Source: Verrucomicrobiota bacterium
GTDB lineage: Bacteria; Verrucomicrobiota; Verrucomicrobiia; Chthoniobacterales; UBA10450
Direction: 5' to 3'
Length of the DNA stretch: 43,389 nucleotides
Assembly: GCA_003219415.1 (NCBI GenBank)
Contig: QHOS01000035.1
Span: 1 to 43,389 of the forward strand
Shown here: positions 41,481 through 43,389 of the stretch, piece by piece
How the letters are laid out: each line of letters begins with the position of its first letter
How positions within the stretch are numbered: position 1 is the first letter of the stretch
The notes under the pieces: model-generated
Database searches by the model: none
Told to the model about the DNA's origin: nothing
The model's input: only the letters and a program-made list of their open reading frames with translations
Made by a program: the position numbers and the translations under genes

Positions 41481-41858
41481 ATGGCGTTTAACATCGACCT
41501 GCATACACATTCCTTTTTTTCCGGGGACGGTATCTCCAGTCCAGAAGATTTGATTGCAGCTGCACGCGCTAAAGGTTTGCATGGCCTTGCCATTACCGAT
41601 CACAACACATGCGATGCGGTCAATTACCTTCTGCAAAAGGGCTTGATGCGACTGGATGGATTGCCGGTCGATGATTTTCTCGTTCTCCCAGGAGTGGAAG
41701 TGACGACCGCCGACGGCCATCTTCTCTGCATCGGTGCGGAGCTTCCTTACCTCAAGGGAAAACCGGCACGCGAAGTCTGCGACATAATCCACCAGCGCGG
41801 CGGGCTCGCGATTCCTCCGCATCCGTATGATTTGTTTCGCGCAGGGATCCGTTTTTAA
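41481..41858 (+). pseudogene. Truncated PHP-domain phosphoesterase
   Basis: The first 125 codons are intact PHP: DLHTHSFFSGDGISSPEDLI, then AITDHNTCDAV, VLPGVEVTTADGHLLCIGAE and IPPHPYDLFRAGIR. A TAA then stops the frame. Full-length members continue for roughly 100 more residues with further metal ligands and a substrate-closing region, none of which is visible downstream. In another frame, a stretch from 41870 to 41995 (about 41 codons, ending in a basic WLRLRRRKKIPEL tail) looks protein-like but is not PHP, as if a deletion had joined two genes. Repeats flank both sides. Confidence 0.65.
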
Positions 41859-42011
41859 AGAGCAATGAATTGACTCAAAAATATCAGACCCCGCGCGACA
41901 GTCTTCGCAAAACCTGGAACAACTGGCTGCGACTGCGGCGCCGAAAAAAGATCCCCGAGCTAGCTGCGAAAGACAGGAGCCATAACGGCCACTGATCCGA
42001 AGCGCAGTTAG

Positions 42012-42127: not shown

Positions 42128-42138
42128 AGGCGATGGTC

Positions 42139-42435
42139 ATGCCTGCTTACATCATTGTTGAAATCGACATCGTCGACCCTATTGACTACGAAGAATACAA
42201 GAAGCTCGCCGGTGCGACCGTGGAGAAATACGGCGGGAAATACATCGTTCGCGGCGGCAAAACCGAAGTGTTGGAAGGCGACTGGAAACCGAAGCGTATT
42301 GTGGTCTTAGAATTCGAATCAGCTGACCGCGCCAAGGAATGGCTCAATTGCGAGGAATATCGCGAACCACGCAAGATGCGCCACCGCACAGCGAAGACAA
42401 ACATGGTCCTGGTCGAAGGGCACACCGAGGGATAA
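42139..42435 (+). CDS. DUF1330 family protein
   Basis: This 98-aa protein starts MPAYIIVEIDIVDPIDYEEY and contains YGGKYIVRGGKTEVLEGDW, then IVVLEFESADRAKEWLNCEE, the DUF1330 dimeric alpha+beta pattern. The ATG at 42139 is 8 bases after GAGG; an ATG at 42133 adds two residues. The family has no established function. It stands alone between repeat elements. Confidence 0.9.
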   Translation: MPAYIIVEIDIVDPIDYEEYKKLAGATVEKYGGKYIVRGGKTEVLEGDWKPKRIVVLEFESADRAKEWLNCEEYREPRKMRHRTAKTNMVLVEGHTEG

Positions 42436-42452
42436 CCAACAAGTTTCATATT

Positions 42453-42572
42453 GTCGCCTCTCCCCTAGGCAAAGGGGAGAGGATGAAGGTGAGGGGTCTG
42501 AACTGCACCTCCCAGTTAGCGAACTTTTTCGAGACCCTCACCCTCCCCTCTCCCTGGCCAGGGAGAAGCGAC
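42453..42572. repeat. Palindromic element with GTCGCCTCTCCC ends
   Basis: The ends GTCGCCTCTCCC and GGGAGAAGCGAC are inverted repeats matching at 11 of 12 positions. Inside, GGTGAGGG and CCCTCACC, and the CCCCTAGGCAAAGGGG hairpin at the left plus TCCCTGGCCAGGGA at the right, give further symmetry. It is a repeat of the intergenic REP/MITE kind rather than a simple terminator, though either arm could end transcription of the DUF1330 gene. Confidence 0.75.
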
Positions 42573-42688
42573 TCGTATCGTGTAGGACACTCAACCGGCC
42601 TAACATCCGAACCGACAATCTCGCTCTAAGCGTCTACAAAAATTAAGATTGCTTTTGCCCACGGCCTCTTGCGAATCTGGCCTCTCGT

Positions 42689-42868
42689 ATGCGACTGCTC
42701 ATTGAAATAGTAATTGTTGCTGCCTTGATTTATCTTGGGTGGAGCAGGCCCTTCAAAGACTGGGCCGCTCAAGGGAGCGCAATGGCAACCACTAGAATTC
42801 ATGCGCCAGCATGGGAGGATCATTCGGCTACGCCAACGCCACCCGCACCAAGAAGAAACCCACGCTGA
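42689..42868 (+). CDS. Tiny single-helix membrane protein, copy 1
   Basis: This 59-aa frame encodes MRLLIEIVIVAALIYLGWSR, then PFKDWAAQ and a Pro/Thr/Arg-rich tail. Residues 4-18 form one hydrophobic helix. A clear paralogue lies on the opposite strand at 43169-43389: 14 of 24 positions are identical in the shared core (EIVI, ALI, LGW, DW). Matching amino acid patterns in two copies is good evidence that both are translated. No clear SD is visible. Function is unknown. Confidence 0.7.
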   Translation: MRLLIEIVIVAALIYLGWSRPFKDWAAQGSAMATTRIHAPAWEDHSATPTPPAPRRNPR

Positions 42869-43168
42869 TCGGACGCTCATCGCTCCAAGTGGCAATGAAC
42901 ACTCACTGCAACTAAAAGCGAGGAGAGTTAAAGCCTGACCGTAGCCTCGCACAAACGCCTTCTAGCTCAGCACGACGTCAGGAGTAGGTGGGATCGTTGA
43001 TCTCAATCGGACCAGGGAGCTTCCCACACAATCAAGAGAACTAGGCGACTGACCACTGACGGACGAGAGTCGAAACTACTGCTTGGTCGCAATCTTAACC
43101 CTGACGGAAAGCGTCGAGTTGCGAACGTGATGTCTTCGCGTGAAGCCTTTCACGGCACCAGAGCGCTT
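42869..43168. other. Gap between the two tiny membrane-protein genes
   Basis: This 300-bp stretch separates the two convergent small genes. I see no coding frame with a recognisable motif and no obvious terminator hairpin. It could hold both 3' untranslated regions. Confidence 0.5.
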
Positions 43169-43389
43169 CTATCGACCGGGAGGTAATTTTCGTACTGCAC
43201 TTTTCCCAAGAGTTCCCTCTCTTTCCCGCGGAGCGGTGGGAGCTGGGATGGTGGTCACAACCGAAGGTTTCTCCCGCTTGGAGTGCAGCAACGTTTGTAC
43301 TGTCGTGGTTGCCCGGCCGCTCCAATCTCTAAGTGGCGTGTCCCATCCCAAAGAAATCAGCGCACCGATAATAACTATTTCAACTAATA
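43169..43389 (-). CDS. Tiny single-helix membrane protein, copy 2, N-terminus cut by window edge
   Basis: The visible 72 codons begin LVEIVIIGALISLGWDTPLR, followed by DWSG, then a Thr/Arg/Lys/Pro-rich tail ending PPGR. The core is homologous to the protein at 42689. The true start lies beyond position 43389, since the frame is still open; a TTG at 43351 would remove the whole helix and is rejected as the start. The two paralogues face each other across 300 bp. Function is unknown. Confidence 0.7.
   Translation of the reverse strand, partial: LVEIVIIGALISLGWDTPLRDWSGRATTTVQTLLHSKREKPSVVTTIPAPTAPREREGTLGKSAVRKLPPGR

Follow-up and report, generated by a model that had tools for sequence, protein, structure and literature searches.

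AcrZ, KdpF and MgrB are small bitopic membrane proteins of E. coli. YohP of E. coli is another (PMC7549839, PMC12719787), and DinQ is a known single-transmembrane toxin (PMC3567139). The DNA analysed here (the window, 43,389 nt) is one contig, C161, of a 3.6-Mb verrucomicrobial genome assembled in 253 contigs, and it stops exactly at nt 43389. Two small frames, called copy A and copy B, lie at that end.

42689–42868, plus strand: copy A, an ATG ORF of 59 aa, MRLLIEIVIVAALIYLGWSRPFKDWAAQG..., a single-helix membrane protein with the core MRLLIEIVIVAALIYLGW and then a Pro/Thr-rich tail
43169–43387, minus strand: copy B, the second family member, of which 72 codons are present; 5′ end open

The 3′ ends of the two frames face each other across about 300 bp, which agrees with the convergent pair of the preliminary description. 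The 5′ end of copy B is open because nt 43389 is the contig end; since its relatives begin MRLLVEI.., it misses only about 3 residues. In a whole-genome search the two proteins matched at 43% over residues 4–55 with E = 8e-9, so their similarity is not due to chance. They have a common hydrophobic-helix core and can be aligned together with 24 further members, so the proposed relationship is confirmed; the single hydrophobic helix is supported. That the core is shared also holds, with the motif itself amended to xxEIVIxxALIxLGWxxPxxDW. The frames had been described as below the usual gene-calling size; at 59–75 aa they are small, yet above the 30-aa limit of common gene callers. Judged by their sequences, both tiny genes are real and related, and are part of an undescribed family of single-helix membrane proteins.

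With single sequences as queries, relatives turned up in most congeners and no convincing match beyond the genus. A profile search detected members in 25 of 35 congeners, the other ten, whose assemblies are incomplete, giving no detected member. Extended to 213 genomes of the order, the profile added 12 genomes from five other genera of the same bacterial family; outside it, the sole match was weak or borderline (E 5.8e-4) and came from a different family of the same order. The small-protein family thus covers 37 genomes of six genera, and the profile search suggested earlier as a check has returned homologues with a conserved core. The alignment of copies A and B with the 24 congener members gives the constant core (M/V)RLLxE(I/L)xxxxxLIxLGWxx(P/S)(F/L)K, in whose helix R2, E6 and W18 are conserved, while the tails differ widely. 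The longer members carry in the tail a conserved WMWDPxHRSPLD motif and a YWID..GVRHY hairpin, both absent from copies A and B.

For the small proteins, Pfam, NCBIfam, PHROGs and PDB gave neither a match close to a curated cut-off nor any other significant one, in agreement with the preliminary description, where no characterised family was named. A DUF4124-like C-terminus was set aside as a mere resemblance (E 4.1). With the 59-aa protein as query no match was found in the contig collection; a 130-aa member found three Verrucomicrobia MAG records only. The scaffold names of these records carry sampling depths of 30–40 cm, which suggests soil cores as their source.

Orthologues of copy A that are 83–85% identical occur in the congeners G006, G017, G027 and G029; those of copy B, found in G029 and G017, are 78–87% identical and keep the convergent arrangement. 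By the Nei-Gojobori method dN/dS is 0.07–0.33 for copy A (five orthologues, one per species) and 0.33–0.65 for copy B (three orthologues). Copy A is clearly under purifying selection, and copy B less clearly so; the selection on protein suggested in the preliminary description is thereby borne out. The DNA conservation at copy A begins about 45 bp before the ATG and drops soon past the stop codon. This highly conserved upstream block is what one would expect if the promoter region alone were functional and the frame incidental. The dN/dS of copy A and the conservation at protein level over six genera largely refute that explanation for copy A, and we regard it as very improbable.

The conserved upstream block contains a promoter-like element.

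42649–42678, plus strand: promoter-like element of copy A, conserved in five copy-A orthologues

It consists of TTGCTT (42649–42654), a spacer of 18 nt ending in TGC (an extended -10), and GAATCT (42673–42678), and the ATG follows 10 nt past the GAATCT hexamer. Aligned upstream regions show that the pattern TTGMYY-N16..19(TGN)-NANNST precedes most family members of the genus. The second base of the -10-like hexamer is A and the sixth is T, and the hexamer mostly lies 6–11 nt before the start codon. In 446 kb of congener DNA the strict form, followed by an ORF of at least 50 aa, matched 22 times; 20 matches precede family members, against 0–2 in the shuffle control; the pattern was derived from the same family sequences that are counted here. 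The loose form occurred at 1 of 1049 candidate starts of 258 nearby ORFs of at least 200 aa. In a genus-wide scan, 10 of 16 pattern matches were family members (reversed control, 1); of the six remaining matches, two are placed about 55 nt before the starts of secreted-protein genes, at loci L204 and L210. The proteins at these two loci are large and secreted-looking. Upstream of copy-B genes and of members in other genera the alignment showed no clear pattern. An extended -10 at 6–11 nt from the start codon implies that most members within the genus would be expressed from a nearly leaderless transcript of their own. The signature provides a handle for finding missed members and for testing leaderless expression.

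The preliminary description explained the pair by a local duplication with inversion; a recent event of this kind is not established. In the tree the nearest relatives of each copy are elsewhere: copy A is nearest to the clade linked to exosortase operons, described below, and copy B to the one copy present in the congener G028. Yet one clade of A and B is not rejected (p-AU 0.075), and the two copies share part of the upstream sequence around the -10. A duplication is therefore possible but unproven from the sequences, and an inversion is not shown. The arrangement that several genera have in common is a small gene facing a pseudopilin cassette in convergent orientation; in G029 copy B sits between copy A and that cassette. 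There a secreted-looking protein with a Pro/Arg-rich tail precedes copy B, and in G017 the end of a similar tail precedes it. Such repetitive tails may be a cause of the contig breaks at this place. A large secreted-looking protein with a Pro/Arg-rich C-terminal tail is also encoded at L065 17461–18447 (minus strand).

On the other side of copy A, the gene order in the lineage of the window is ABC exporter, PHP, DUF1330 and then copy A.

41481–41858, plus strand: PHP-domain gene (PF02811), truncated here
42133–42435, plus strand: DUF1330 protein (PF07045, E=1.9e-32)

DUF1330 stays upstream of copy A in G006, G017, G027 and G029. The PHP gene (41481–41995) lacks residues 131–200 of a 247-aa relative and its frame is shifted, so that it is probably a pseudogene in the window. 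A long imperfect inverted repeat occupies nt 42455–42573, between DUF1330 and copy A. Its predicted fold, at -60.4 kcal/mol, is far more stable than those of shuffled versions (z -3.8), and parts of it recur in other congeners, in the manner of a MITE or REP element. In another genus, at L158 954–1499 (minus strand), a Txe/YoeB-type toxin gene adjoins a family member.

The commonest neighbour of the small gene is the minor-pseudopilin-like set D-B-C-A known as the Verru_Chthon cassette. The 3′ end of cassette A, or a remnant of it, lies beside the small gene in 16 of the 29 loci that have 400 bp or more of flanking sequence (15 by profile and one by NCBIfam). These loci come from five genera, the two genes are always convergent, and in the closest cases they are 8–54 bp apart. 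Such a neighbour could mean that the small protein serves the cassette as a dedicated accessory, with a helix that packs as the N-terminal helix of a pilin does and has its Glu in the same register; the LxE register does agree with the pilin helix FTLLELL. Against this, the proteins begin MRLLxE and have no pilin or pseudopilin leader with Gly or Ala before a prepilin cleavage site. PF07963, the N-methylation helix, gave no Pfam match, and the profile comparison with the cassette-D pilin helices was not significant (HHalign probability 14% at best), and the relation to the pilin helix was dropped. With its own promoter-like element and a convergent gene, the small gene is not co-transcribed with the cassette. 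It is also retained where the cassette has decayed, and the genome of the window gave no cassette-A match, so that the synteny may reflect ancestry, not function. A dedicated cassette role thus appears rather doubtful. L079, L080, L078, L071 and L169 carry short leftovers of the C-terminal end of cassette A, in some cases a series of them, which suggests repeated decay of pseudopilin cassettes beside the small gene.

A second neighbourhood is found in seven congener loci, where exosortase, PEP-CTERM protein and TPR protein genes are followed by the small gene; at most of the seven a WecG-type glycosyltransferase gene is divergent. These are all but one of the operons assembled at the 3′ end past the expected place of the small gene, and they could indicate a component of the exosortase/PEP-CTERM sorting system. 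In G003 the operon has no adjoining small gene, and the family member is elsewhere in the genome. The linkage is not consistent beyond the seven loci: the genome of the window has only an exosortase of another sub-type, on another contig, whose assembled surroundings contain no small gene, and the other genera show no exosortase linkage. Because the small gene has its own promoter-like element, co-transcription with the operon is not required. Membership in the sorting system is therefore judged unlikely.

Hydrophobic peptides of type I toxin-antitoxin systems, which are small multi-copy loci under antisense-RNA control, offer another comparison. The short-tailed clades, with single-helix proteins of 55–75 aa, sometimes two copies adjoining, and with their own tight promoter-like element, would suit such toxins. 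The longer members with conserved, extracytoplasmic-looking motifs and a hairpin would not, nor would a synteny retained over several genera. Moreover, Rfam gave no match in the small-gene region, and a crude scan of the antisense strand showed no promoter-like site, although it missed the sense promoter as well. A type I toxin is accordingly quite unlikely.

The AF2 model of copy A is one long helix, residues 2–37, with good confidence for about residues 1–17 only and low confidence beyond about 20. For the 130-aa member it gives a confident helix 2–19, a helix 22–41, a disordered linker and a C-terminal hairpin. Our preferred reading, held tentatively and at somewhat less than an even chance, is that both genes encode small bitopic inner-membrane proteins that serve an envelope complex for secretion or surface display as its membrane-anchored adaptor or regulator. 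The N-terminus would lie inside and the Pro/Thr-rich tail on the periplasmic side, while Glu6 and the GW..PFK collar might provide helix contacts with a larger membrane partner. In the longer members the tail would reach the periplasm, where the WMWDPxHRSPLD motif and the YWID..GVRHY hairpin may bind something in the envelope; the short-tailed copies of the window would keep only the membrane part of the adaptor job. A bolder and rather improbable extension is that throughout the family an envelope adaptor, made of one helix with an exchangeable periplasmic tail, links inner-membrane secretion machinery (the pseudopilin cassette, the exosortase) with the surface of soil Verrucomicrobiota cells, and that its expression is driven by its own leaderless promoter, of the kind also found upstream of some secreted-protein genes.

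Overall, these small membrane proteins form a real, undescribed family that looks ordinary and whose promoter-like element is unusually specific; the function of the family is inferred only. It adds a selected small membrane-protein family to the soil Verrucomicrobiota, known mostly from metagenomes, and the neighbours of its genes point towards systems of envelope secretion in the phylum.

Among the known systems, the E. coli small bitopic proteins (YohP etc.) are alike in tiny size and one short hydrophobic helix; no sequence relation to them was found, and most family members differ by much longer, Pro-rich, motif-bearing tails. TatA/Tha4 have in common with the family a short helix with a polar residue and a hinge-like Gly/Pro segment, followed in some members by a helix and a flexible tail. 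Unlike them, the family has no Pfam match and lacks an amphipathic helix conserved across its members (the mean z of 31 members was 0.54, and copy A scored mostly negative); for the latter reason the TatA-like architecture was dropped. To our knowledge, the small gene is not part of the described EpsH/exosortase PEP-CTERM system. Compared with the EpsH/exosortase PEP-CTERM operons (PMC1569441), it has its own promoter-like element and is absent beside the exosortase of the window's genome as assembled, but it adjoins such operons in one sub-group of the genus. From the Verru_Chthon cassette proteins A–D (TIGR02596, TIGR02598, TIGR02599, TIGR02600) the small protein differs in having neither prepilin leader nor pilin domain and in its convergent gene, whereas the cassette genes are its conserved neighbours and its Glu takes the same register in the N-terminal helix.
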